From Nonomuraea rubra (GTDB lineage: Bacteria; Actinomycetota; Actinomycetes; Streptosporangiales; Streptosporangiaceae): a stretch of DNA of 64,000 nt. Where the stretch lies: NCBI RefSeq assembly GCF_014207985.1, contig NZ_JACHMI010000001.1, positions 6,369,001 through 6,433,000 on the forward strand, given 5' to 3'. Each line of letters starts with the position of its first letter. Positions within the stretch are counted from its first letter, which is position 1. Shown piece after piece: positions 21,478 through 35,810 of this stretch. The notes beneath the pieces are model-generated. The model saw only the letters and a list, made by a program, of their open reading frames with translations. It did not search any database and had not been told where the DNA came from. A program made the translations under genes and the position numbers.

Positions 21478-21674
21478 CCTGCCCCCCCGTGCGGCCGGAT
21501 CGCCCCCCTCGGCGGGGTGAGCGCCTGATTGCGGGATCGCCCGGGTGAAGAGGATCATGGTGAGCCGGCGCCCCGGAGCAGTGGCGAGGAGGGCTCATGT
21601 CTTGCCCCGGTCCGGAGCCGAGAACTCTCCCGTCGCCGCTCCAGGAGGTTTGCGCGTGTTGGACGATGCTGCGC

Positions 21675-21903: not shown

Positions 21904-24900
21904 ATGAACACGGATGTGAAGGGCGCGAACCGCCTTCTCACAGACTCGCCCGCCCGCCTCCACGAGGCTCTGGAGGCGCAGTGCCGGCGGACGCCCGATC
22001 GCGTCGCCGTCGTCGCGGGCACGGTTCGGCTGACCTACGCCGAGCTCGACCGCAGGGCCAACGGAATCGCGCACGCCCTGGCCGCCCGGGGCGTCGGGCG
22101 CGGCAAGCTCGCGGGCATCTGCCTGGACCGCGACGAGTGGCTGGTGCCCGCGCTGATGGGGGTGCTCAAGGCGGGAGCGGCGTACGTCCCGCTGGATCCG
22201 GCCTACCCGGCGGAACGCTTACGCTTCATGGCCGAGGATTCCACCGTGAGCGCGGTCGTCACGTCGGCGGCGCGGCGCGAGACCGCGCTGCTGACCGGCG
22301 CCGAGCCGGTGCTCGTGGACGACGTGGCGCCCGCGGAGCGCGGCCCCGAGGCGCCGGGCGAGCCGGGCGACGCCGCGTACGTCATCTACACCTCGGGTTC
22401 CACCGGCCGCCCCAAGGGCGTGGTCGTGGAGCACCGCAACACGCTGAACCTGGTGCGCTGGGAGGCGTCCGCCTACACCGCCGAGGAGCTGAGCGGCATG
22501 CTGGCCGGCTCCTCCATCTGCTTCGACGCCTCCATCACGCAGATCTTCACGCCGCTGTACGCCGGCGGCACCGTGATCGTGGCGGACACCGTGCTGGCGC
22601 TGCCGGCGCTGCCCGCCCGCGACGAGGTGCGCACGGTCTTCGGGGTCCCGTCGGCGCTGTCCGTGCTGCTGCGCGAGCCGCTGCCGGACGGCGTGCGCAT
22701 GGTGCTGTCCGGCGGCGAGCGGCTGACCGAGGCCCTGGTCGGCCGGATGTTCGCCAACCCGGGCGTGCGCCGCGTGCTCAACATGTACGGCCCCACCGAG
22801 TGCACGACCGGCTCCACGATGTTCGAGGTGACCCGCGACCACCGGGGCGAGCCGCCGCTGGGCGGGCCGATGGCGGGCGCGGTGCTCAGCGTGCGCGACG
22901 CCTCCGGCAGGCCGGTGCCGGACGGCGAGGTGGGCGAGTTGTGGATCGGGGGGCCCGGCGTGACGCGCGGGTACCTGGGCCACGAGTCGCCGGCGTTCCG
23001 CACCGAGCCGGACGGCAGCCGCGTCTACCGCAGCGGCGACCTGGTGCGGTGGGCGGACGGCGAGCTGCGCTACGTGGGCCGCGCCGACGACCAGGTCAAA
23101 ATCCGCGGCTACCGGGTCGAGCTGGGCGAGGTCGAGTCCACACTGGACCGCCACCCGGCGGTGCGCCGCGCCGTCGTGCTCGCCCACACCGACGACGACG
23201 GCATCGCCTACCTCGCCGCGCACGTGGCGGCCTCCGGCGTGACCGAGCCCGAGCTGCGCGACTGGCTGCGCGCCCGCCTGCCCGACCACCTGGTGCCCGC
23301 CAGGATCGGCGTGACGGGCGACCTGCCGATCGGCCCCACCGGCAAGGTGGACCGCGCGGCCCTGCCCAGGCTGGGCGCCGCCCGCACGGGCGGCGCGGCG
23401 CCGATCGCGCCCCGCACGGCTGACGAGCGCCTGGTGGCCGGGGTGATCGCGGACGTGCTCGGCCTGCCGGAGGTGGGCGTGCACGACCGGTTCGCCGACC
23501 TGGGCGGTCACTCGCTGGCCGCGGCCCGGGTGGTGACCGAGCTGTCGCAGCGGGTCGGGCACACCGTGCCGCTGGCGACGTTCCTGACCGAGCCGACGGC
23601 GGCCGGGCTGGCGGCGCGCCTGCGCGAGCCCGGCTCCGCGCCGGTGCGCCGGTACGGCCTGACGAGACATCCGCTCACCGCCACCCAACGCGAGTTCTGG
23701 ACGTTGCGGCAGCTCCATCCGCACAGCCCTGTCACCACGGTGTCGGTCCGGCTGCGCGTCAGCGGCCCGAGCGCCGGCGGCGCGGCGCTGCGCCCGGCCC
23801 TGGACGCGGTCCTGCGCCGGCACGAGGCCCTGCGCAGCACGGTCTCCGTCGGCGAGGACGGCGTCCCGTACGCGGTCGTACACCCGCCGGTTCCCGTCCC
23901 GCTGGTCGAGCACCCGGCGGGCGCGGACCCGGCGAAGGCGGCCAGGGCCGCGGCGGAGCACGTGTTCGACGTGACGAGCGAGGTGCCGCTGCTCCGGGCC
24001 AGTCTGTGCCCGGCCGGCGACGGCGTGGCCGAGCTGGTGCTCGTGACGGACCACCTGGCCTTCGACGGCGGCTCGGTCGGCGTGCTGATGGAGGAGCTGG
24101 CCGCCGGGCTGGCGGGCGAGCCCGTTCCGGAGCCGGCGGTGCAGCTCGGCGACGTGGCGGCACGCGAGCAGGAGGAGCAGCCGGACCTCGCGCGGCTGCG
24201 GGAGTTCTGGCGCGGCGAGCTGGACGGGGCGCCGGTCGCCGGGCCGCCGCCCGGCGACCTGACGACGCGCCGGGTGATCCGCCCGCTGACCGGGGAGTTC
24301 ACGGCCGGCGTGGCCGCGCTGGCCCGCGCGTGCGGCGCGACGCCGTTCGCGGTGTACCTGGCCGCGCTCGCCTTGGCCTCCGGGGAGCCGGACACGCTGG
24401 TCGGCATGGTCGCGGCGCGGCGCGCCAGGCCGGAGCTGGCGCGGGTCGTCGGGCCGCTGGTCGACACCGTGCCGGTGCGGCTGCGGCCGGACGCGGCGCC
24501 GACCTTCCGCGACCTGGTCAGGCAGGCCGCGGACGCCGCCACGCGGGCGCTGGTCCATCAGGAGGTCCCGCCTGCCGGCCTGCCACGGGCCCCGGTCCTG
24601 CTGGCCATGCAGCACGCCGGGGTGCCGGTGCGCGCCGGGTGCCTGGAGCTGCTGACGGAGGTGGGCTCGGGCGCGGCGGTGCACGAGCTGAGCGTGCTCG
24701 TCAACCGCACCGCCGCCGGTTCCGAGCTGCACCTGGAGTACGCGGTCGCGCTGCTGGGCCGGGAGGAGGCCGAGGCGTACCTGGACCGGCTGCTGTGGCT
24801 GCTGCGGCGCGCGGTGGCCGAGCCGGACCTGGAGGTGGCGGCGTTCGAGCCGGTCACCCCGGAGGAACGTGCCGCGCTGCTGGCCCGCGCGGCCGGCCCC

Positions 24901-26637
24901 CGGCTGCCGGACGATCTGGTACCGGTGCCGCTGATGCTGGCGGCGCACACGACGGGCACCGCGGTGGCCGGGCCGGACGGCGCCTCCCTGAGCTACGCCG
25001 AGCTGAACGACCGCGCCGACCGGATCGCGGCCGGGCTGCTGGAGCGCGGGCTGTCGCGGGGCGACGTGGTCGGCGTGCACCTGCCGCGCGACCGCATGTT
25101 GCCGGCGGTGCTGCTGGGCGTGTGGCGGGCGGGGGCGGCGTACCTGCCGCTGGACCCGGAGTACCCGGCTGAGCGACTGCGCCTGCTGGCCGCCGACGCG
25201 GGGGCGCGCGTGGTGCTCACGCGCGGCGAAGCGGGCCTTGTGATGTCCCCTGGCGGAACGGCGGTTCTCGACGCGGACCGGCTCGCGGCCGGGCCGCGCG
25301 CGGACCTGCCCGAGGTCGGCCCCGACGATCTGGCGTACGTCGCCTACACCTCCGGCTCCACCGGCGCCCCCAAGGGCGTGGAGGTCACCCACGGCAGCCT
25401 GGCCGCCCTGGTGGCAGGGACGGTCTCGACGCTCCGCCTCGGCCCGGCCGACGTGCAGCCCGCCGTCGCGCCGCTGAGCTTCGACACCTCCGCCTCCGAG
25501 CTGTGGAGCGTCCTGGCCGCCGGCGGCACGTCGGTGGTGGTGGACCGGGGCACGGCCACCGACGGGCACGCGCTGGCGGAGCTGATCGCCACGAGCGCGG
25601 CCACGGTGATCGACCTGGTGCCGACCTCGTACCGGATGCTGATCGCGGCCGGCTGGGCGGGCGGCCCCGCGCTGCGCGCGGTCGCCGGCGGCGAGGCGCT
25701 GGACCCGGGGCTGGCCGAGCAGATCCTGGCCAGGGCCGGCGAGCTGTGGAACGCCTACGGGCCGGCCGAGGCCACCGTCACCTCGACGCTGCACCGGGTG
25801 CGCGGGCACGGGGCGGACCGGGTGCCGATCGGGTCGCCGATGCCGGGCGAGCGGGCGTACGTGGTCGACTCGCGGCTGCGGCTGGTGCCGCCGGGCGCGG
25901 TCGGCGAGCTGCTGCTGGGCGGCGCCGGGGTGGCCCGCGGGTACCGGGGCCGCCCCGAGCTGACCGCGGCCGCGTTCGTGGCCGACCCGTTCGCGCCTGA
26001 CGGCCGCTGCTACCGCACGGGGGACCTGGCGCGGTGGCGGCCGGACGGGACGCTGGAGTTCCACGGCCGCCGCGACCACCAGGTGAAGGTCCGCGGCTAC
26101 CGGATCGAGCTGGGCGAGATCGAGGCCGTGCTGCGCGAGGTCACCGCCGCCGCGGTGACCGTGGCCGGTTCGGGCGCGAACGCCCACCTGGTCGGCTACG
26201 TCGCGCCGGAGACGGCGGACCTGGCCGCGATCGAGCGGCACGCCCGTTCCCGGCTGCCCGGCCACATGGTGCCGCGCCGCTGGGTCACGCTGCCGGCCCT
26301 GCCCACGCTGACCAGCGGCAAGGTCGACCGCGACGCGCTGCCGGCCCCGGACGACGGGCCGGGCGCCCCGAAGGTGGCACCGGCCACCGACGCCGAGCGG
26401 CTCGTGGCCGCCGTCTGGTCCGAGGTGCTCGAACGGCCCGAGGTCTGGGCCGGCGACGACTTCTTCGCCCTCGGCGGGGCCTCGTTCGCGGCGACCAGGG
26501 TGGCCGCCCGACTGCGCGAGATGTTGCAGGTCGCGGTGCCCGTGCGGCTGCTGTTCGACCGGCCGGTGCTGGCCGACTTCGCCAGCGCGCTGGAGGAGCT
26601 GCTGGCCGCCGATCTGATGGGGGGGAACGAGGGATGA
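21904..26637 (+). CDS. Non-ribosomal peptide synthetase, A-T-C-A-T (loading module plus module 2)
   Basis: 1577 residues from ATG 21904 (AAGGA 6 nt upstream). A1 occupies about 15-495 (YVIYTSGSTGRPKGV, MYGPTECT, YRSGDLVRW, GPTGKVDRAALP). T1 has LGGHS with Ser537. C2 runs about 585-1000 with DHLAFDG, the catalytic second His (717) present and the first replaced by Asp. A2 lies about 1030-1495 (YVAYTSGSTGAPKGV, AYGPAEATV, TSGKVDRDALP). T2 has LGGAS with Ser1527. No initial C domain means A1 loads the starter. Pocket residues read by eye: A1 D-A-T-G-V-S-M-T-G-K; A2 D-T-S-D-A-A-A-V-T-K; I know no match for either. No epimerase domain. The stop overlaps the next start (ATGA). Confidence 0.9.
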   Translation: MNTDVKGANRLLTDSPARLHEALEAQCRRTPDRVAVVAGTVRLTYAELDRRANGIAHALAARGVGRGKLAGICLDRDEWLVPALMGVLKAGAAYVPLDPAYPAERLRFMAEDSTVSAVVTSAARRETALLTGAEPVLVDDVAPAERGPEAPGEPGDAAYVIYTSGSTGRPKGVVVEHRNTLNLVRWEASAYTAEELSGMLAGSSICFDASITQIFTPLYAGGTVIVADTVLALPALPARDEVRTVFGVPSALSVLLREPLPDGVRMVLSGGERLTEALVGRMFANPGVRRVLNMYGPTECTTGSTMFEVTRDHRGEPPLGGPMAGAVLSVRDASGRPVPDGEVGELWIGGPGVTRGYLGHESPAFRTEPDGSRVYRSGDLVRWADGELRYVGRADDQVKIRGYRVELGEVESTLDRHPAVRRAVVLAHTDDDGIAYLAAHVAASGVTEPELRDWLRARLPDHLVPARIGVTGDLPIGPTGKVDRAALPRLGAARTGGAAPIAPRTADERLVAGVIADVLGLPEVGVHDRFADLGGHSLAAARVVTELSQRVGHTVPLATFLTEPTAAGLAARLREPGSAPVRRYGLTRHPLTATQREFWTLRQLHPHSPVTTVSVRLRVSGPSAGGAALRPALDAVLRRHEALRSTVSVGEDGVPYAVVHPPVPVPLVEHPAGADPAKAARAAAEHVFDVTSEVPLLRASLCPAGDGVAELVLVTDHLAFDGGSVGVLMEELAAGLAGEPVPEPAVQLGDVAAREQEEQPDLARLREFWRGELDGAPVAGPPPGDLTTRRVIRPLTGEFTAGVAALARACGATPFAVYLAALALASGEPDTLVGMVAARRARPELARVVGPLVDTVPVRLRPDAAPTFRDLVRQAADAATRALVHQEVPPAGLPRAPVLLAMQHAGVPVRAGCLELLTEVGSGAAVHELSVLVNRTAAGSELHLEYAVALLGREEAEAYLDRLLWLLRRAVAEPDLEVAAFEPVTPEERAALLARAAGPRLPDDLVPVPLMLAAHTTGTAVAGPDGASLSYAELNDRADRIAAGLLERGLSRGDVVGVHLPRDRMLPAVLLGVWRAGAAYLPLDPEYPAERLRLLAADAGARVVLTRGEAGLVMSPGGTAVLDADRLAAGPRADLPEVGPDDLAYVAYTSGSTGAPKGVEVTHGSLAALVAGTVSTLRLGPADVQPAVAPLSFDTSASELWSVLAAGGTSVVVDRGTATDGHALAELIATSAATVIDLVPTSYRMLIAAGWAGGPALRAVAGGEALDPGLAEQILARAGELWNAYGPAEATVTSTLHRVRGHGADRVPIGSPMPGERAYVVDSRLRLVPPGAVGELLLGGAGVARGYRGRPELTAAAFVADPFAPDGRCYRTGDLARWRPDGTLEFHGRRDHQVKVRGYRIELGEIEAVLREVTAAAVTVAGSGANAHLVGYVAPETADLAAIERHARSRLPGHMVPRRWVTLPALPTLTSGKVDRDALPAPDDGPGAPKVAPATDAERLVAAVWSEVLERPEVWAGDDFFALGGASFAATRVAARLREMLQVAVPVRLLFDRPVLADFASALEELLAADLMGGNEG

Positions 26638-29600
26638 CCGAGGTACACGAGGACCGGATCGCCGAACTGGTCCGGTCCAGGCTGGCCGCCGCCCTGAAGC
26701 GGACCGAGACGGCCCCGGCCCCGGGCATCCCGGCGACGTCGGCCACGGACATGCCGCTGTCGCCCGCCCAGGAGCGGCTGTGGTTCCTGGCCCAGCTCGA
26801 ACCGGACAGCAGCGCCTACAACGTGCCGCTGACGCTGCGGCTGAACGGCCCGGTGGACGTCGCCGCCCTCACCGGCGCGGTGGCGGACCTGGCGGAGCGG
26901 CACTGGATCCTGCGCGGCGTCGTCGAGGACGGCCGCGTGCGGCCCGTCGCCGCCGTACAGGTGCCCGTGGTGGACGTGGCGGATCCGGCGGAGCTGGAGC
27001 GGGAGCTGGCCGGGCACGCCTGGCGGCCGTTCCGCCTGGACGCCGAGCCGCCCCTGCGGGCCACGGTGTTCCGGCTCGGCGACGACGCGTGCGTGCTCGC
27101 GCTCACCCTGCACCACATCGCCACCGACGCCTGGTCGGAACGCGTGCTGCTGGACGACCTGTCCCGCCTGTACGCCGCCCGCCTCGGCCTGGAGCCGCCC
27201 CCCGCTCCCCCGGCCCTGCAGTACGCGGACGTGGCCGCGTGGGAGGCCGGGCGGCCGGACACCGGCCTCGACTGGTGGGCGGAGCGGCTGGCGGGCCTGC
27301 CGCCGGTGCTCGACCTGCCGCTGGCCCGGCCGCGCCCGCCCGTGCCCACCTGGGAGGGGGCCGCGATCGCGGTGGAGGTGCCGCCGGCGCTGTCGGCGAA
27401 GGTGCGCGCGGTGGCGGGGACGTCGCCGTTCATGGTGTTCCTGGCCGGGCTGCAGGCGCTGCTGAGCCGCCTGTCCGGCGTCGACGACGTCGCGGTCGGG
27501 GTGCCGCACGCGGGCCGGCACCACCCCGACGCCGAGCGGGTCGTCGGCTGCTTCATCAACACGCTGGTGGTGCGCGGCGACACCTCGGGCGACCCGACGG
27601 GTGCGGAGCTGCTGGCCCGGGCGCGCGCGGCGGCGCTGGACGCGTTCGCGCACGCCGGCACGCCGTTCGAGCGGGTCGTGGAGCGCCTGCAGCCGGAGCG
27701 GAACCTCGCGGTCACGCCGCTGTTCCAGGTGATGCTCAACGTGTACGACACCGGCGCCCCGGTGACGCTGCCCGGGCTGGAGGTCGTGGCCGGGTCGCCG
27801 CCCGCCCCGACCGCCAAGTTCGACCTGAACCTGGAGCTCGGCGACGACGGCACCCGCTTCTCGGGCGAGTTGCGTTACCGCAAGGACCTGTTCGACGAGG
27901 CCACCGTGCGGCGGCTGGCCGGCTGGTACCTGGAGCTGCTGGACGGCCTGCTCACCGACCCGGACGCGCCCGTGCGGCTGCCGGCCGGCGCCGACCTGCG
28001 CGGCGAGGGCCCGGCCGTGCCCGTGGACGTGCCGCTGCACACGCTGGTCGAGCGGGTGGCCGACACCTGCCCCGACGCGGTCGCGGTCGGTTCGCTCACC
28101 TACGCGGAGCTGGACCGCCGCGCCAACCAGGTGGCCCACTGGCTGCTGGCGAGCGGGGTACGCCCGGAGGAGCCCGTCGGCGTGCTGCTGGAGCGGCGGC
28201 CCGAGCTGGTGGTCGCCATGCTCGGCGTGCTCAAGGCGGGCGCGGCCTACCTGCCGCTCGACCCGGTCTACCCGGAGCGGCGCAACAGCGCGGTGGTGGC
28301 CGACGCCGGGGCGCGGATCGTGCTCACGGACGCCGAGCTCGCCGCCGCGGCGGGGTCGCCGGACGAACGTCCCGGCGTGGCCGTGCGGCCGGAGCACCTG
28401 GCGTACGTGATCTACACGTCCGGTTCGACCGGGCGGCCGAAGGGCGTCGCGGTCGAGCACCGGCACATCACGCACTATCTCGGCGCGGTGGCCGGGGTCA
28501 TTCCCGCGGGCATGACCTCGTACGCGCTGGTCTCCACCGCCGCCGCCGACCTGGGCATGACGAACGTGTGGGGCGCGCTGACCACGGGCGCCACCCTCCA
28601 CCTGATCGACCACGAGACGGCCACCGACCCGGCCGCGTTCGCCGCCCGCCTGGCGGCGCACCCCGTGGACGCGATCAAGATGGTGCCCAGCCAGCTCGAA
28701 CTCCTCGGCACCGCGGCGTTACCCGGCAAGCTGCTGATCCTGGCCGGTGAGGCGGTGCCCGCGGACCTGGTGGCGCAGGTCGGGCAGGCACGGCCGGACC
28801 TGGAGGTGCAGATCCACTACGGCCCCACCGAGACCACGGTGTCGGTGCTGGCCTGCGACGCGGGCCAGGCGCTGGCCGGGCTGGGCCCGGGCCGGACACC
28901 GCTGGGCCGGCCGCTGGCCGGCGTGGTGTGCCGGGTGGCCGACCCGTCCGGGCGGGCGCTGCCGCCCGGCGTGCCCGGGGAGCTGTGGATCGGCGGGCCC
29001 AGCGTGGCCCGCGGCTACCTGGGCCGTCCCGACCTCACCGCGGAACGTTTCACCGGCGGCTGGTACCGCACCGGCGACCGGGCCCGGGTGACCGGGGACG
29101 GGCTGATCGAGTTCCTGGGGCGGATCGACGACCAGGTGAAGGTGCGCGGCTTCCGCGTCGAGCCGGGCGAGGTGGCCGCGGCGTTGCGGGCTCTGCCGCA
29201 GGTCGGGGAGGCGTACGTGCAGCCGGTCGGCGACGGCCTCGACCGGCGCCTGGCCGCCTGGGTGACGCCGGAGACGGCGGACGTGGCAGAGCTGCGGGCG
29301 GCGCTGCGCGAGCGGCTGCCCGACTACATGGTGCCGGCCGCGATCGGTGTGCTGGAGGCGTTGCCGCTCACCCCGAACGGCAAGGTGGACCGGGCGGCGC
29401 TGCCCGTGCCCGAGGCGGGGCCCGCGGTGCGGGTGCCGCTGGGAACTCCCGGTGAGCACCTGGTGGGCGAGGTCTGGGCCGACGTGCTCGGGCTCGCGGA
29501 GGTGTGGGCGGACGACGACTTCTTCGCCCTCGGCGGGCACTCGTTCGCGGCGACCCGGGTGGCCGGGCGGCTGCGGGAGCGGCTGGGCGTGGCGGTGCCG

Positions 29601-32280
29601 GTGCGGCTGCTGTTCGAGCACCCGGTGCTGGCCGACCTGGCCGCCGCCCTCCCCCGCCCGGCCGCCGCCGCGCGCGTGCGGCGCGAGCTCGCGGACGGGC
29701 CGGTGCCGCTGTCCGGGGTGCAGGCCAGGCTGTGGTTCCTGGCCCAGCTCGAACCGGACAGCAGCGCCTACAACGTGCCACTCGCGCTGCGGCTGACCGG
29801 ACCGCTCCAGCAGGAGGCGCTGCTGGGGGCGGTGCGCGACCTGGCCGAGCGGCACCACGTGCTGCGCGGCGTGATCGACGACTCCGGCCCCGAGCCGGTC
29901 ATGGTGGTGCGCGACGCCGGCGCGGTGCCGGTGTCCACCGCGCGCGTGGACCGGTCGGAGGTCGAGGACGTGCTGGCCGCGCACCTGGCGACGCCGTTCG
30001 CGCTGGACCGCGAGCCGCCGATGCGGGCGGTGCTGCTCGCCGTGGACGACGGCGAGCACGTGCTCTCGCTCACCTTCCACCACATCGCCACCGACGCGTG
30101 GACGCGGGGGCTGCTGCTGTCGGAGCTGTCCGGCCTGTACGCCGCCCGCCTCGGCCTGCACCCGCCGCTCGATCCGCCGCCAGCGCAGTACGCGCAGGTG
30201 TCGCCGGAGCCCGACCCGGCCGACCTGGACTGGTGGGCCGGGCACCTGGACGGCCTGCCGCCGGTGCTCGACCTGCCCACCGACCGGCCGCGCCCCGCCG
30301 TGCCGGACCCGGCCGGCGCCGCGATCGAGCTGGAGCTGCCGGCCGGGCTGAGCGAGCGGGTCAGGGCGGTGGCCGCCGCCTACCGGTCCACGCCGTTCAT
30401 CGTGCTGCTGGCCGGGCTGCAGGCGCTGCTGGCCCGGCTGTCGGCGAGCGCGGACATCGCGGTCGGCGTGCCGGTCTCGGGCCGCGACCACCCGGACACC
30501 GAAGGCGTGGTGGGCTGCTTCCTCAACACCGTGGTCGTACGGACGGACGTGGGCGGCGACCCGACCGGGCGCGACCTGCTGGCCCGCGCGCGGGAGTCCG
30601 CGCTGGGCGCGCTCGCGCACGCGGGCACGCCGTTCGACCGGGTGGTGGACCGGCTGCGGCCGGAGCGGAACCTGGCGGCCACGCCGCTGTTCCAGGTGAT
30701 GCTCAACTACGTCCCGGGCGTGGCGGCACCGGAGCTGCCCGGCCTGGAGGCGTCGGAGATCCACCTGCCGGAGCTGACCACCAAGTTCGACCTGAGCTGG
30801 CACGTCGTGGACGAGGGGCCGGGCGCGCCGCTGCGCGGCGGGCTCGCCTATCGGACCGACCTGTTCGAGCCGGGCACCGCGGCCAAGCTGACCCGCTGGT
30901 ACGCGGCCCTGCTCGACGGGCTGCTCGCCGACCTGGACACGCCGGTGGGCGCGGTGCCGCTGGAGCCGGTGACCGGCCCCGCCGTGGCCGGCGGGCCGCC
31001 GCCCGAGCCGCCCGCCGGGGCGGTGCACCACCTGATCGAGCGCTGGGTGGACGAGACTCCCGGCGCGCCGGCCGTGGTGGGCGCCGACCGCGCCCTGACC
31101 TACGCGGAGCTGGAGGCGGCCGCGAACCGGATCGCGCACTGGCTGCTGGAGGCCGGGGTGGCCGCCGACGAGCCGGTCGGCGTGCTGCTGGAGCCGGGCG
31201 CGGACCTGGCGTGCGCGCTGTTCGGCATCCAGAAGTCGGGCGGCGGCTACCTGCCGATGGACCCGGCGTACCCGGCCGCGCGGATCGCCGCCATGCTGGA
31301 GGCCGCCGGGGTGCGGGCCGTGGTGACGGTGAGCGAGTTCGCGGGCCTGATCGGGGACGGGCGGCGGGTGCTCGCGCTCGACCGGGCACCGTCCCTGCCG
31401 GAGACCCGCCCCGACGTCGAGGTACGGCCGGAGCACCTGCACCACGTGATCTTCACGTCGGGCTCCACCGGCACGCCGAAGGCGGTGGCCGCCGAGCACG
31501 GCGGCGTGCTGAACTACCTGGGCGGGATGCTGCCGCGCATCGGCGTGCCCGGCGGGTCGTTCGCGGTGGTCTCGACCCCCGCCGCCGACTTCGGCCTGAC
31601 CTGCGTGTTCGGCGCGCTGACCACCGGCGGGACGGTGCACCTGGTGCCCCGCGAGACCGCGATGGACCCGGCGGCGTTCGCCGGCTACCTGGCCGAGCAC
31701 CGGGTGGACGTCGTCAAGTGCGTGCCGAGCCACCTGGAGCTGCTGGCCTCCGGCGGCGACCTGGCCGCCGTGCTGCCGGGCGAGCTGCTCATCCTGGCCG
31801 GCGAGGCGTGCCCGTGGGATCTGGTGGAGCGGGCCCGGGCGGCACGGCCAGGGCTCAGGATCCAGAGCCACTACGGCCACACCGAGTCCACCATGATCTG
31901 CCTGGTGTGCGACACCGAGGAGATCCCCGCCGCGCGGCGGACCGGCATCGTGCCGCTGGGCCGCCCGCTGCCCGGCGTGTACGGGCACCTGGTGGACGCC
32001 GCCCTGCGCCCGGTGCCGCCCGGCGTGCCGGGAGAGCTGGTGGTGGGCGGCCCGGGGGTCACCCGGGGCTACATCGGCCGGCCCGAGCTGACCGCCGAGC
32101 GGTTCGTCCCCGACCCGCTGACCGGGCAGGGGCGCTGCTACCGCAGCGGCGACCTGCTGCGGGTCACCGCCGACGGGCAGATCGAGTTCCGCGGCCGGGT
32201 GGACGACCAGGTCAAGGTACGCGGCTACCGGGTGGAGCTGGGCGAGGTCACCACCGCGCTGCGGGCGCTGCCGCAGGCAG
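26634..32280 (+). CDS. Non-ribosomal peptide synthetase, C-A-T-C-A part (5' portion, frameshifted at 3' end)
   Basis: From ATG 26634, in-frame for about 1882 residues. C3 (about 40-460) has HHIATDA with His160-His161; A3 (about 470-930) has YVIYTSGSTGRPKGV and YRTGDRARV; T3 has LGGHS with Ser970. C4 has HHIATDA with His1149-His1150. A4 (from about 1460) has VIFTSGSTGTPKAV and CYRSGDLLRV. Both HHxxxDG motifs have Ala for Gly. Pocket readings: A3 D-L-T-K-I-A-H-V-S-K, A4 D-F-T-K-I-A-H-M-I-K; both resemble the Asp/Asn code D-L-T-K. The reading frame is lost near 32277, before the A10 motif. The rest (T-TE-MFS) continues in another frame, so this and the next entry were one gene. Confidence 0.88.
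29730..29779 (+). repeat. 50-bp exact repeat shared by C3 and C4 (other copy 26778-26827)
   Basis: The starts of the two condensation domains of NRPS-2 share 50 identical bases (coding LWFLAQLEPDSSAYNV), including third codon positions, while flanking DNA differs. This suggests recent module duplication or gene conversion. Confidence 0.85.
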
Positions 32281-32283
32281 CTC
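32271..32283 (+). other. Frameshift point in the last adenylation domain
   Basis: Module 3 has 48 nt between CTGCCGCAG and CTGGCCGCCTGG. In module 4 the matching CTGCCGCAG and CTCGCCGCCTGG are only 4 nt (GCAG) apart. The missing 44 nt code about 15 residues between motifs A9 and A10 and shift the frame. The gap lies between GCAG repeats, as a slippage deletion or an assembly error in GC-rich repeated sequence would. Confidence 0.8.
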
Positions 32284-34767
32284 GCCGCCTGGGTGACGCC
32301 CGCCACGGTGGAGGCCGCGGCCACGCGCGCGGCGCTGCGCGAGCGGTTACCCGACTACATGGTGCCCGCGCACGTCGTGGCCCTCGACCGGCTCCCGCTC
32401 AACCCGAACGGGAAGATCGACCGGGCCGCCCTGCCCGAGCCGGTGGCCGAGCAGGCCGCGTACGCGGCGCCCGCGACGCCGGAGGAGGAGCTCGTCGCCC
32501 GGGCCTTCGCCGGGGTGCTGGGCGTGGCGCGGGTGGGGTCGGGCGACGACTTCTTCGCCCTCGGCGGCGACTCGTTCGCCGCGGTGCGGGCGGTCAAGGA
32601 GATCGGCCGCGGGCTGCGGGTGATCGACCTGTTCACCCGGCCCACCGTGGCCGAGCTCGCCGCGTTCCTGGGCCGCGAGGACGGCGGCGGGCTGCTGCAC
32701 CGCCTGGGCGGCGGCCGGGCCAGCGAGTTCACGCTGGTGACCGTGCCGTACGGCGGCGGGTCGGCCGCCGTGTACCAGCCGCTGGCCAGGGCGCTGGGCG
32801 ACCGCGTCGAGGTGCTGTCCGTGGAGCTGCCGGGCCACGACCCGGCCCGGCCGGACGAGCCGCCGCTGCCGCTGGACGAGCTGGTGGGCGTTCTGGCCGC
32901 CGAGGTGGCCGCGACCGCGTCCGGCCCTGTCGCGATCTACGGCCACTGCGTGGGCACCGCGCCCGCGGTCGCGCTGGCGCGCCGGCTGGAGGCGGACGGC
33001 GTGCCGGTGCTGGGCGTGATCGCCGCCGCGAGCTTCCCCGCGGCCCGGCTGCCCGGGCTCGTCAGGCGGCTGTTCGGCGGCGACCGCTGGGTGTCCGACC
33101 GGATGTTCCGCGACGCGCTGCGGGCCTCGGGCGGGCTGCTCGACGACATGGACGAGGCCGCCAAGCGGACCGCCGTACGGGCCATGCGGCACGACGCGGA
33201 CCAGGCGCAGGAGTGGTTCGGCCGCGAGCTGGCCGGGGACGGGGAGCCGCTGCGTGCCCCGATCCTGAGCCTGGTCGGCGAGCGCGACCGCGCCACCCAG
33301 CTCCACGAGGAGCGTTACGCCGAGTGGGCGGCGTTCGGCCCGCGGGTGGAGCGGGCCGTGCTGCCCCGGGCCGGTCACTACTTCCTGCGCCACCAGGCCG
33401 AGCCGCTGGCCACGCTGCTGCTGGAGCACCTGACCCGCTGGTCGGCCGGACGGCTGCCCGGCCCGGTGGGCCCGCCCGAACGGACCGGGCTGCGGCCCTT
33501 CTACACGGTCGCGGGCGGGCAGATCGTCTCGGCGCTGGGCACGGCGCTCAGCTCGTTCGCACTCGGCGTGTGGGCCTACCAGCGCAGCGGCGAGATCCTG
33601 GACCTGGCGCTGGTCACGATGCTGGCGCAGATCCCGGCCGTGCTGCTCACCCCGCTGGGCGGCGCGCTGGCCGACCGGGTGGACCGGCGCAAGATCATGC
33701 TGGCCTGCGACGCGCTGTCCGGCCTGGCCATGGTGGCACTGGTGCTGCTGCTGGTCACCGACCGGCTGGCGTTCTGGAACGTCTGCGCCATCGTGGGCGT
33801 GACCTCGGTCGTGTCGGCGTTCCAGCAGCCCGCGTGGCTGGCGGCGATCGCGCAGCTCGTGCCGAAACCGTACCTGCCGCAGGCCAACGCCCTGGCGAAC
33901 GTGGGCTTCGGCGCGGGCAACGTGATCGCGCCGCTCGCGGGCGGCGCGCTGATCGGCCTGTTCGGGTTGTCGGCGGTGGTGGCCGTGGACGTGGCCACGT
34001 TCGCGATCGGCGTGCTGACGCTGCTGCTGGTGCGCTTCCCCGACCGGCTGTTCCACCGGCGCGAGGAGACGTTCGCGGCGGCGCTCAGCGGCGGCTGGCG
34101 CTTCCTCCGCAGGCGGCGGCCGCTGCTGGTGATGGCGCTGTACTTCGCGGTGGTCAACTTCTGCACCGCGCTGATGTGGGTGCTCGTCACCCCGGTCGTG
34201 CTGGCCATCGGCACCTCGGCGGACCTGGGCGCGGTGACCGCGATCGGCGGTGTCGGCGCGGCCCTGGGCACCGCCGTGGTGCTGGTGTGGGGCGGCACGC
34301 GGCGGCGGGCCACCGGGATGGTCGGCTTCGTGATCGGGTCCGGGCTCGGCGTGGTGCTCATGGGCGTGTGGCCGGTCGTGTGGCTGGTCGCGGCGGGGTT
34401 GTTCGTCCGGCTGGCGTGCATGAGCATCGGCAACGCGCACTGGTTGTCGATCATCCAGGTCAAGGTGGGGCCGGAGCTGCAGGGGCGGGTGCTGGCGGTG
34501 AACATCATGATCGCCACGGCCATGCAGCCGCTCGGCTTCCTCTCCGCGGACCCGCTGGCGGAATGGGCCGGGCGGTTCGCCGGCGGGCCGGGCGGGGGCG
34601 CCGCGGCGGTGCTGCTCGCCAGCGGCGTGTTCCTGGTGGCGTGGGGGCTGCTGGGGCTGTGGTACCGGCCGCTGCACCACCTGGAGGACCTCGTCCCCGA
34701 CGCCGCGCCGCCGTCGGAGGCCGCGGCCGACCTCGACGCCGTCCAGGAGAGGGTGCTGAGCGCATGA
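32281..34767 (+). CDS. NRPS 3' portion: A10-T-thioesterase fused to MFS transporter
   Basis: The open frame restarts at LAAWVTP, the expected continuation of A4 (LPDYMVPAHVVALDRLPLNP, GKIDRAALP). T4 is FFALGGDSFAAVRAV. A thioesterase follows (LVTVPYGGGSAAVYQPLARA) with YGHCVGTAPA at 32938-32967: the nucleophile position is Cys, not Ser. The probable acid and base lie in LVGERDRATQ and RAGHYFLRHQ. A complete MFS domain then begins GLRPFYTVAGGQIVSALGTA, with about 12 helices and a loop-2/3 motif GGALADRVDRRKIM. NRPS-MFS fusions are known as annotated architectures; coupling release to export is inference. The stop overlaps the PLP gene (ATGA). Confidence 0.85.
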   Translation, partial: LAAWVTPATVEAAATRAALRERLPDYMVPAHVVALDRLPLNPNGKIDRAALPEPVAEQAAYAAPATPEEELVARAFAGVLGVARVGSGDDFFALGGDSFAAVRAVKEIGRGLRVIDLFTRPTVAELAAFLGREDGGGLLHRLGGGRASEFTLVTVPYGGGSAAVYQPLARALGDRVEVLSVELPGHDPARPDEPPLPLDELVGVLAAEVAATASGPVAIYGHCVGTAPAVALARRLEADGVPVLGVIAAASFPAARLPGLVRRLFGGDRWVSDRMFRDALRASGGLLDDMDEAAKRTAVRAMRHDADQAQEWFGRELAGDGEPLRAPILSLVGERDRATQLHEERYAEWAAFGPRVERAVLPRAGHYFLRHQAEPLATLLLEHLTRWSAGRLPGPVGPPERTGLRPFYTVAGGQIVSALGTALSSFALGVWAYQRSGEILDLALVTMLAQIPAVLLTPLGGALADRVDRRKIMLACDALSGLAMVALVLLLVTDRLAFWNVCAIVGVTSVVSAFQQPAWLAAIAQLVPKPYLPQANALANVGFGAGNVIAPLAGGALIGLFGLSAVVAVDVATFAIGVLTLLLVRFPDRLFHRREETFAAALSGGWRFLRRRRPLLVMALYFAVVNFCTALMWVLVTPVVLAIGTSADLGAVTAIGGVGAALGTAVVLVWGGTRRRATGMVGFVIGSGLGVVLMGVWPVVWLVAAGLFVRLACMSIGNAHWLSIIQVKVGPELQGRVLAVNIMIATAMQPLGFLSADPLAEWAGRFAGGPGGGAAAVLLASGVFLVAWGLLGLWYRPLHHLEDLVPDAAPPSEAAADLDAVQERVLSA

Positions 34768-34838
34768 GTGCCGAGCCCATGAGTGCTGAGCCCATGAGTG
34801 CCGAGCCCATGAGTGCCGGGCGCGTGAGTGCCGACGCC
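34764..34838 (+). repeat. 15-bp tandem repeat carrying start codons, 5 units
   Basis: Units ATGAGTGCCGAGCCC at 34764, 34779 (one change), 34794 and 34809 (three changes), then a GTG version at 34824. Each codes MSAEP or a variant, giving five in-frame possible starts for the PLP enzyme, the first overlapping the NRPS stop. Confidence 0.9.
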
Positions 34839-35810
34839 GTCCAGGACACGGATGCCGAGCGCGTGACGCTCGTGACCGCGGACGACGTGCGGGCGGCCGG
34901 TGCCCGCATCGCGCCGTACGTGCGGCGCACGCCGCTGGTGCGGCTGCCCGGCGAGCGGCTCTGGGTCAAGCCGGAGAACCGGCAGCCCACCCGCTCGTTC
35001 AAGGTGCGCGGCGCGGTGCACGCCGTGGGCCGGCTGGCCGGGCGCGGGGTACGGCACGTGATCGCCCAGTCGTCGGGCAACCACGCGCAGGCCATCGCCT
35101 ACGCCGCCGCCGAGCTGGGGTTGCGGGCGACGGTCGTGCTGCCGGACACGGCGCCGGAGCTGAAGGTTCGCGCCGCGCGCCGGCTCGGCGCCGAGGTGGT
35201 GATCGTGCCGCCCGCGCTGCGGGAGGAGGCTTGCCTGGCGCTGGCCGACAGGTTCGGGGCGACGGTGGTCGGCTCGGATGCCTTCGACGTCATCGCCGGG
35301 CACGGCAGCGCCGGGTCCGAGATCTGCCTGGACCTGCCGGACGCGGGTGCCGTACTGGTGCCCGTCTGCAACGGCGGCCTGCTGGCCGGGATCGCGGTCG
35401 CCGTCAAGGCGGCCGACCCGGCGATCCGGGTGATCGGCGTCGAGCCCGAGCTGGCCGCCGACGGGGCGGCCAGCTTCCGGTCGGGCACGCGCACGGCGTG
35501 GCCGGTGTGGCTGACCTACCGCACGCGGGCCGACGGCCTCCGGGCGCCGGTGCTCGGCGCGCTGGCGTGGGAGCACATCCACCGGTACGTGGACGACATG
35601 CTGACCGTGACCGAGGAGGCCATCGGCGCGGCGGCCGGCCTGCTGGGGCGGGAGCTCGGGGAACGCGCCGAGCCCAGCGGCGCGGTGGCCACGGCCGCCT
35701 ACCTCACGCACCGCGCGGAGCTGCCGCCGGGGCCCGTGGTCGCGATCATCTCCGGCGGCAACGTCGCGACCGGCACGCAGACCAGGGAGGAGCTGGTGCG
35801 CAGCACGTAA
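34764..35810 (+). CDS. PLP-dependent enzyme, threonine dehydratase/serine racemase family
   Basis: 348 residues from the first ATG. The fold-type-II core starts near residue 35 (VRAAGARIAPYVRRTPLVRL). PLP Lys lies in TRSFKVRGAVHA; the phosphate-side motif is SSGNHAQAIAYAA. The usual Gly loop (VPVGGGGL) reads VPVCNGGLLAG, which is unusual. C-terminal EPSGAVATAAYL and ISGGNVATG fit the serine racemase/hydroxyaspartate dehydratase group; no ACT domain, so not a biosynthetic IlvA. As last gene of the NRPS operon it may make or racemise a precursor such as Ser, Thr, Asp derivative or diaminopropionate. That role is inference. Confidence 0.85.
   Translation: MSAEPMSAEPMSAEPMSAGRVSADAVQDTDAERVTLVTADDVRAAGARIAPYVRRTPLVRLPGERLWVKPENRQPTRSFKVRGAVHAVGRLAGRGVRHVIAQSSGNHAQAIAYAAAELGLRATVVLPDTAPELKVRAARRLGAEVVIVPPALREEACLALADRFGATVVGSDAFDVIAGHGSAGSEICLDLPDAGAVLVPVCNGGLLAGIAVAVKAADPAIRVIGVEPELAADGAASFRSGTRTAWPVWLTYRTRADGLRAPVLGALAWEHIHRYVDDMLTVTEEAIGAAAGLLGRELGERAEPSGAVATAAYLTHRAELPPGPVVAIISGGNVATGTQTREELVRST

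Follow-up and report, generated by a model that had tools for sequence, protein, structure and literature searches.

The locus analyzed here raises the question of whether a nonribosomal peptide synthetase (NRPS) is joined, in a single chain, to the transporter that would export its product, and whether such a coupling is peculiar to one gene or is a lasting feature of a family. The window, i.e., the whole stretch of 64,000 nucleotides that was analyzed (contig C1, 6369001-6433000), belongs to a host genome of 12.88 Mb (G000), and its nearest named relatives are Nonomuraea. A first synthetase gene, NRPS1 (21907..26637, +), shows the order A-T-C-A-T, with two AMP-binding, one Condensation and two PP-binding stretches in Pfam; its start is approximate (~21907), within an open frame that begins at 21529. 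The NRPS2 gene region (26634..34767, +) has its ATG at 26634, overlapping the stop of NRPS1, and presents the order C-A-T-C-A-T-TE-MFS with a frame break near 32276. Between 26634 and 32309, Pfam detected two condensation, two AMP-binding and one carrier domain, among which are the first condensation domain (26745..27977, +; PF00668, residues 38-448 of the frame from 26634), the first carrier (T) domain (29463..29651, +; PF00550, residues 944-1006) and the N-terminal part of the second adenylation domain (31038..32072, +; PF00501, residues 1469-1813). Between 32293 and 34767, it detected a carrier, a thioesterase and MFS_1/MFS_3. The downstream open frame (32293..34767, +; 824 aa from GTG 32293) comprises the end of the A domain, the second carrier domain (32491..32670, +; PF00550, residues 67-126 of this frame), an ObiF-like thioesterase domain (32731..33399, +; PF00975), whose nucleophile Cys codon at 32947 (+) lies in a GHCVG motif coded from 32941, and a putative DHA3-type MFS exporter domain (33511..34533, +) assigned from PF07690 (residues 407-747), PF05977, NCBIfam and the predicted model. 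By homology, NRPS2 is thus a modular NRPS with C, A and T in order and a terminal TE, the second A domain being interrupted in the window copy.

The ATG of the next gene, PALP (34764..35810, +; PF00291), which encodes a PLP enzyme of the threonine dehydratase / 3-hydroxyaspartate ammonia-lyase kind, overlaps the stop of NRPS2. Its 5' end (34764-34823) is a tandem 15-bp repeat of four units, each opening with ATG, so several starts are possible. When 21 protein queries from the window (NRPS2 being entered as two) were compared with seven orthologous regions (28.6-30 kb) found in other Nonomuraea genomes, only the NRPS1, NRPS2 and PALP proteins recurred in all seven at more than 45% identity. 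NRPS1 lies directly 5' of NRPS2 in each of these regions, and PALP is kept in all of them (7/7). These three genes are the conserved cluster and, as none of the other proteins compared recurs at this level, the window has no second exporter that is kept together with it.

In the window copy, codon-position G+C indicated that the coding potential changes frame near 32276, and this switch, together with the alignment of orthologues, places a deletion junction with a change of frame at 32273..32280 (+). Relative to orthologue L009, the window is without 44 bp, a stretch that sits in L009 between two CAGG repeats and falls in the C-terminal part of the second A domain. The missing A-domain stretch is present in all five orthologues readable in the alignment (out of seven, L010 and L012 being in the wrong orientation and thus uninformative), and the matching region forms one open frame of 2894-3271 aa in 7/7 Nonomuraea orthologues. 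The T-TE-MFS frame is open from 32122, the nearest 5' stop ending at 32121. Frame 0 is also stop-free past 32276, for more than 3.5 kb through the shifted TE/MFS sequence and into the in-frame PALP, to 35810, giving a chimeric open frame of 3058 codons from 26634; that it stays open through the shifted sequence is due to chance.

The preliminary description had claimed the order C-A-T-C-A-T-TE followed by a complete 12-helix MFS, all in one chain, with the T, TE and MFS frames contiguous from 32281. The domains were borne out by Pfam and by the predicted structure, and the contiguity of the three frames was confirmed, TE and MFS following the last carrier without a change of frame. The single chain stands for this T-TE-MFS part but not for the whole protein, in which the 44-bp deletion shifts the frame; a whole synthetase and MFS in one uninterrupted frame is found in the seven orthologues and not in the window copy. 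The deletion may be real or may be an assembly error, and the frame-broken copy of NRPS2 may be inactive in its own strain. Because the gene is broken by this deletion, the complete machine is probably not made in the window strain, unless the deletion is an assembly error. The dN/dS values of the window against its orthologues, and among six orthologues, were 0.30 and 0.23 for the MFS, 0.16 and 0.17 for the TE, and 0.51 and 0.55 for the T region (74 codons). They give no clear sign of relaxed selection on the downstream part of the window copy, which suggests that the deletion, if real, is recent.

The fusion of TE and MFS was then followed beyond the window. The 824-aa downstream protein, searched against 98 related genomes (own genome included; E 1e-60, at most 10 candidates scored per genome), matched 47 of them. 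The rows were grouped into 92 loci, the own locus being left out, and all were inspected: TE and MFS are in one frame at 90 of the 92 (78/79 + 12/13). Fourteen of the 92 loci had been found through the TE alone, and the MFS was also present in 13 of these. One exception, L097, has a related TE (motif GQCAG) without MFS, its frame closing shortly after the TE. At the other, L254 (1069-6581, +), the TE of the NRPS gene is a different one that matches weakly (43 bits, GWCMG), and the MFS (342 bits) is encoded by a gene of its own immediately after it. The MFS of L254 is of a more distant kind, and such unfused neighbours may represent the state from which the fusion arose.

A second search was less biased, as its query was the MFS domain alone; it was run against named GTDB species, where 486 stretches encode a relative, and the best 80 of these 486 were inspected. 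TE and MFS are in one frame at 79 of these 80 named loci, and the remaining one, L172, starts inside the MFS at a contig end. Within these best 80 of 486, the hosts of the fusion include Nonomuraea, Microtetraspora, Planomonospora, Microbispora, Streptosporangium, Actinomadura and Amycolatopsis, further Pseudonocardia, Micromonosporaceae, Kitasatospora, Streptomyces and Embleya and, more distantly, Solirubrobacter, Paenibacillus anaericanus, two Chloroflexota MAGs and Vibrio sp. S9_S30. A third search, with the MFS against 394 class-level genomes (E 1e-60, best 4 candidates per genome scored, rows counted by hand), gave 60 rows in 26 genomes. Fifty-one of the 60 rows scored above 520 bits: one is the broken window copy (886 aa), and the frames of the other 50 measure 1014-4022 aa. 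The remaining nine scored below 410 bits, in frames of 304-539 aa. This split in score and frame length indicates that close relatives of the MFS are fused and more distant ones separate. In a search for split copies within the family of G242 (35 genomes), the three matches were all in frames of at least 1014 aa. No common partner gene was detected with Pfam among 20 neighbour proteins of other fusion families.

A conserved covalent coupling of the TE and the putative exporter is strongly supported. The preliminary description had asked whether the partner domains always co-occur or whether homologues always carry them as separate genes: the two are fused at 79/80 named and 90/92 related loci, and constant separation did not occur, one distant relative (L254) having adjacent separate genes. 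It had also stated that NRPS-MFS fusions exist as annotated proteins, which is the case for P0026 of Nocardia callitridis, a protein of the same architecture named "non-ribosomal peptide synthetase/MFS transporter". What was already known is thus the NRPS/MFS fusion as an annotation name, i.e., a label only.

The MFS tree comprised 177 MFS domains, 94 of them fused, and all 94 fused domains fall in one clade (support 0.997). This clade also holds four MFS proteins listed as separate (P0127, P0145, P0149, P0171), which, judged from their first residues, look like late starts, splits or fragments, P0171 being short. For the Nonomuraea-centred loci, the TE and MFS trees had 25 and 28 supported splits, 21 of which were shared and none in conflict. 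For 93 wider loci, they had 43 and 54 splits at support 0.9 (36 shared, 4 in conflict) and 35 and 41 at support 0.95 (30 shared, none in conflict), and label shuffles of the trees (8 printed) gave 0 shared splits with 42-43 of 43 in conflict. The two trees are largely congruent, which points to inheritance of the pair largely as a unit; TE and MFS would have moved in this way even into distant phyla. The linker between them has a median of 20 aa and a range of 14-114 aa (93 loci).

Carrier-MFS fusions without TE (P0100, P0101, P0110, P0111) group in their own MFS clade, with one unfused protein, P0109. As this clade is separate, the joining of NRPS and MFS probably arose at least twice, and the carrier-MFS type is probably a second, independent NRPS-exporter fusion. 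We also noted P0152 of Actinomadura litoris, a protein of 547 aa in which a C domain and a fragment of an A domain precede an incomplete, closely related MFS (84% identity, covering 37% of the query), as would be expected if a fusion gene had lost an internal portion.

Concerning the MFS domain, an AlphaFold2 model of T-TE-MFS computed from 20 sequences (mean pLDDT 84.5, pTM 0.79) predicted a 12-helix MFS part (helices counted by hand), the last helix ending at ~34660. MFS proteins with 12 helices have a cytoplasmic N-terminus, a topology that is compatible with a TE located in the cytoplasm. With 12 helices and a motif A, seen in the GGALADRVDRR stretch with invariant D and R positions, the domain is DHA3-like, and several motif-A residues are invariant across 20 aligned members. 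The best NCBIfam match was TIGR00900 (H+ antiporter 2A0121), at 175 and 177.5 bits and thus under its cut-off of 319.6; the closest NCBIfam transporter models all remained below their own cut-offs, the best-scoring ones being mostly efflux pumps. A PDB sequence search with the MFS alone gave no match at E 0.1.

Some side observations concern relatives of this domain. A separate MFS with 33% identity to the fused one, in a frame of 468 aa, is encoded in the same genome as the window (G000, C1 8010207-8011493; L002), near several NRPS-type matches at 8.01-8.03 Mb. At L094 (959-4645, +), the frame of NRPS-TE-MFS continues into an APH phosphotransferase domain (PF01636, 116 bits). Long tails are also present in L092, L093 and L095, the Pfam scan having covered L094, and P0055 of Nonomuraea lactucae has PF01636 with the fusion too. 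It is possible that such an APH-tailed fusion combines synthesis, export and self-protection in one chain.

The thioesterase resembles that of ObiF1. The best solved matches of the predicted model in fold were ObiF1 and then the carrier-TE of SulM, and the T-TE sequence matched these structures at E 6.8e-41 and E 5.5e-18, respectively. Over the fused loci, the Cys nucleophile was found in 93/93, and the Asp after strand 7 and the His each in 92/93 (one gap each). In ten loci compared at this position, strand 6 does not end directly in an Asp, although L128 has one a few residues on. Read from sequence, the TE thus shows the ObiF/SulM-type arrangement, in which the nucleophile is Cys and the catalytic Asp follows strand 7 (position II) and not strand 6. 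To our knowledge, ObiF1, the obafluorin NRPS with a beta-lactone-forming TE, is without MFS. It is described with the same Cys, Asp after strand 7 and His (PMC6668435, PMC11298585), and it differs by an MbtH-like domain (PMC6668435). SulM, the sulfazecin NRPS with a beta-lactam-forming TE, has the same carrier-TE fold and triad arrangement; it is the weaker match and has a Gln-Cys-Asn motif (PMC11298585) where the window TE has GHCVG. The same source gives the Asp after strand 7, among structurally characterised NRPS thioesterases, only for ObiF1 and SulM, both with Cys and both making four-membered rings, and reports the same Asp position in some type II thioesterases (RifR, RedJ) (PMC11298585).

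The Cys nucleophile was considered as a mark of the fusion and rejected, since it is also present in 49/52 non-fused TE proteins (best 120 of 489). Within the same best 120 of 489, 54 of the 62 TE + MFS proteins had the Cys, the other 8 being unread by the pattern (6 of these are short TE pieces), and 6 more proteins had an MFS without TE. The Cys nucleophile belongs to a wider TE branch. The pockets of the terminal A domains, read by hand at what we take to be the relevant positions, look Asp-like, Ser-like, Cys-like or Orn-like, and those of L175 and L176 look Gly-like. As Gly cannot form a strained ring, the latter two weaken the case for such chemistry throughout the family. By analogy with the two solved enzymes, ring closure by the fused TE is a serious possibility, and we hold it at that because those 49 non-fused relatives have the Cys as well and at least one fusion family looks Gly-terminated. 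It is conceivable, if rather improbable, that some members of the family use the Cys/Asp-II TE to form a strained, reactive ring at the terminal residue and that the tethered MFS then removes the product immediately, thus protecting the producer from its own compound. If this were true, a reactive peptide would be made, activated and exported by a single membrane-bound chain, one branch bearing a kinase-like APH domain.

The occurrence of PALP follows the type of terminal A domain. In the best 80 of 486 loci, PALP was found in 23/25 with the terminal A-domain motif of the window, YGHTES, and in 0/33 with YGPTET (Fisher p 3e-14, relatedness of the loci being uncorrected). The two YGHTES loci without PALP, L116 and L177, yielded none under permissive search settings either; 22 of the 80 had no readable motif, and one of these, L129, has PALP. 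Some of the named loci have short flanks, on which a more distant PALP would be missed. As PALP goes with YGHTES, its enzyme probably provides or modifies the residue that this A domain selects. The best of the 25 NCBIfam models shown for PALP was threo-3-hydroxyaspartate ammonia-lyase, at 212.3 bits and thus under the cut-off of 452. The A-domain pocket looks Asp-like, according to the code that we presume to apply.

We propose that NRPS1 and NRPS2 would build a short peptide, probably of four residues, and that the terminal carrier would pass it to the ObiF-like TE with its Cys, Asp after strand 7 and His. The TE would release the peptide, possibly closing a ring, and the DHA3-type MFS, separated from the TE by a linker of ~20 residues, would hold the synthetase at the cytoplasmic side of the membrane and export the product. 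On the comparisons made here, we consider it likely that the MFS serves as a tethered exporter, probably dedicated to the peptide that the adjoining TE releases. It would work beside the TE and export the peptide released next to it; proximity could speed export or limit self-exposure, and a direct hand-off from TE to transporter may take place. Against this exporter reading stand the broken window copy, the NCBIfam transporter models that remained under their cut-offs, the proteins P0127, P0145, P0149 and P0171, listed as separate, and the loci L097 and L254.

Alternatively, the MFS could serve chiefly to anchor the synthetase in the membrane or to set stoichiometry, and the peptide would be freed to the cytoplasm and taken later by this pump or another, without hand-off. 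The variable linker length (14-114 aa) would suit an anchor, as would the NRPS and MFS of L254, which are neighbouring separate genes, and the existence of TE-less carrier-MFS fusions implies that the fusion needs no TE. However, the purifying selection on the MFS is near that on the TE (dN/dS 0.23 and 0.17), and motif-A residues are invariant in the 20 aligned members, so a transport function seems to be kept. We thus regard a mere anchor as unlikely, though worth keeping in sight.

There is a slim chance that the fusions make siderophores and export them through an EntS-like MFS. In the enterobactin system, EntF ends in a TE and the exporter EntS is separate, the two being encoded by two genes. 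The likeness lies in an NRPS ending in a TE and in an MFS exporter of the same broad kind. The EntS model of NCBIfam does match the window MFS at 67-69 bits (66.7 and 69), but this is far under its cut-off of 324 bits. Around 32 fusion loci in 14 genomes, an ornithine N-oxygenase lies within 50 kb at 3 loci, for ~0.33 expected, whereas a FecCD permease lies within 50 kb at 3 loci for ~1.7 expected, these expected numbers being rough, as they come from the coverage of +/- about 50 kb. Besides the NRPS, no siderophore gene was found with Pfam among 20 ORFs of the window (9460-46566). Siderophore export as a general role is therefore unsupported by the FecCD distances, ornithine oxygenase being above chance at 3/32 loci, and a few paralogues may be siderophore systems. 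The fusion loci at ~24-37 kb from an ornithine N-oxygenase are G010 C1 10142988, G051 C1 1815065 and G018 C7 328764.

It is very doubtful that the MFS imports a precursor or gives self-resistance to a compound other than the peptide: at least one paralogue has an APH phosphotransferase domain behind the MFS, as in self-protection, but the best-scoring NCBIfam transporter models are mostly efflux pumps and the terminal position after the TE fits export. We find it hardly credible that the break is functional, with two polypeptides or programmed frameshifting in the window strain, since, despite a GTG at 32293 in a downstream frame without stops, no good ribosome site is seen by eye 5' of 32293, the deletion takes a part of the A domain kept by the five readable orthologues and lies between short repeats in L009, TE and MFS share one frame at 90/92 related loci, and the whole gene is open in the seven orthologues.

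The tethered exporter can also be set beside another MFS fusion. In the acyl-[ACP]-phospholipid O-acyltransferase fusion (PRK08633), whose model matched at 35 bits, the MFS is fused to acyl-activating enzymes; it is N-terminal, serves lipid remodelling and goes with no NRPS. No description of an NRPS-TE-MFS class was found by title or abstract start among the papers listed from the full-text literature, the coverage of which mostly excludes subscription papers. We know of no product, substrate or localisation for any member of the fusion family. A covalent pair of synthetase and putative exporter that has been kept over such a large phylogenetic distance is a concrete test case for the channelling of assembly-line products to pumps. 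Also, the ObiF-like TE marks clusters worth searching for small strained-ring peptides, and the fused exporter offers a ready bioinformatic handle for finding them.
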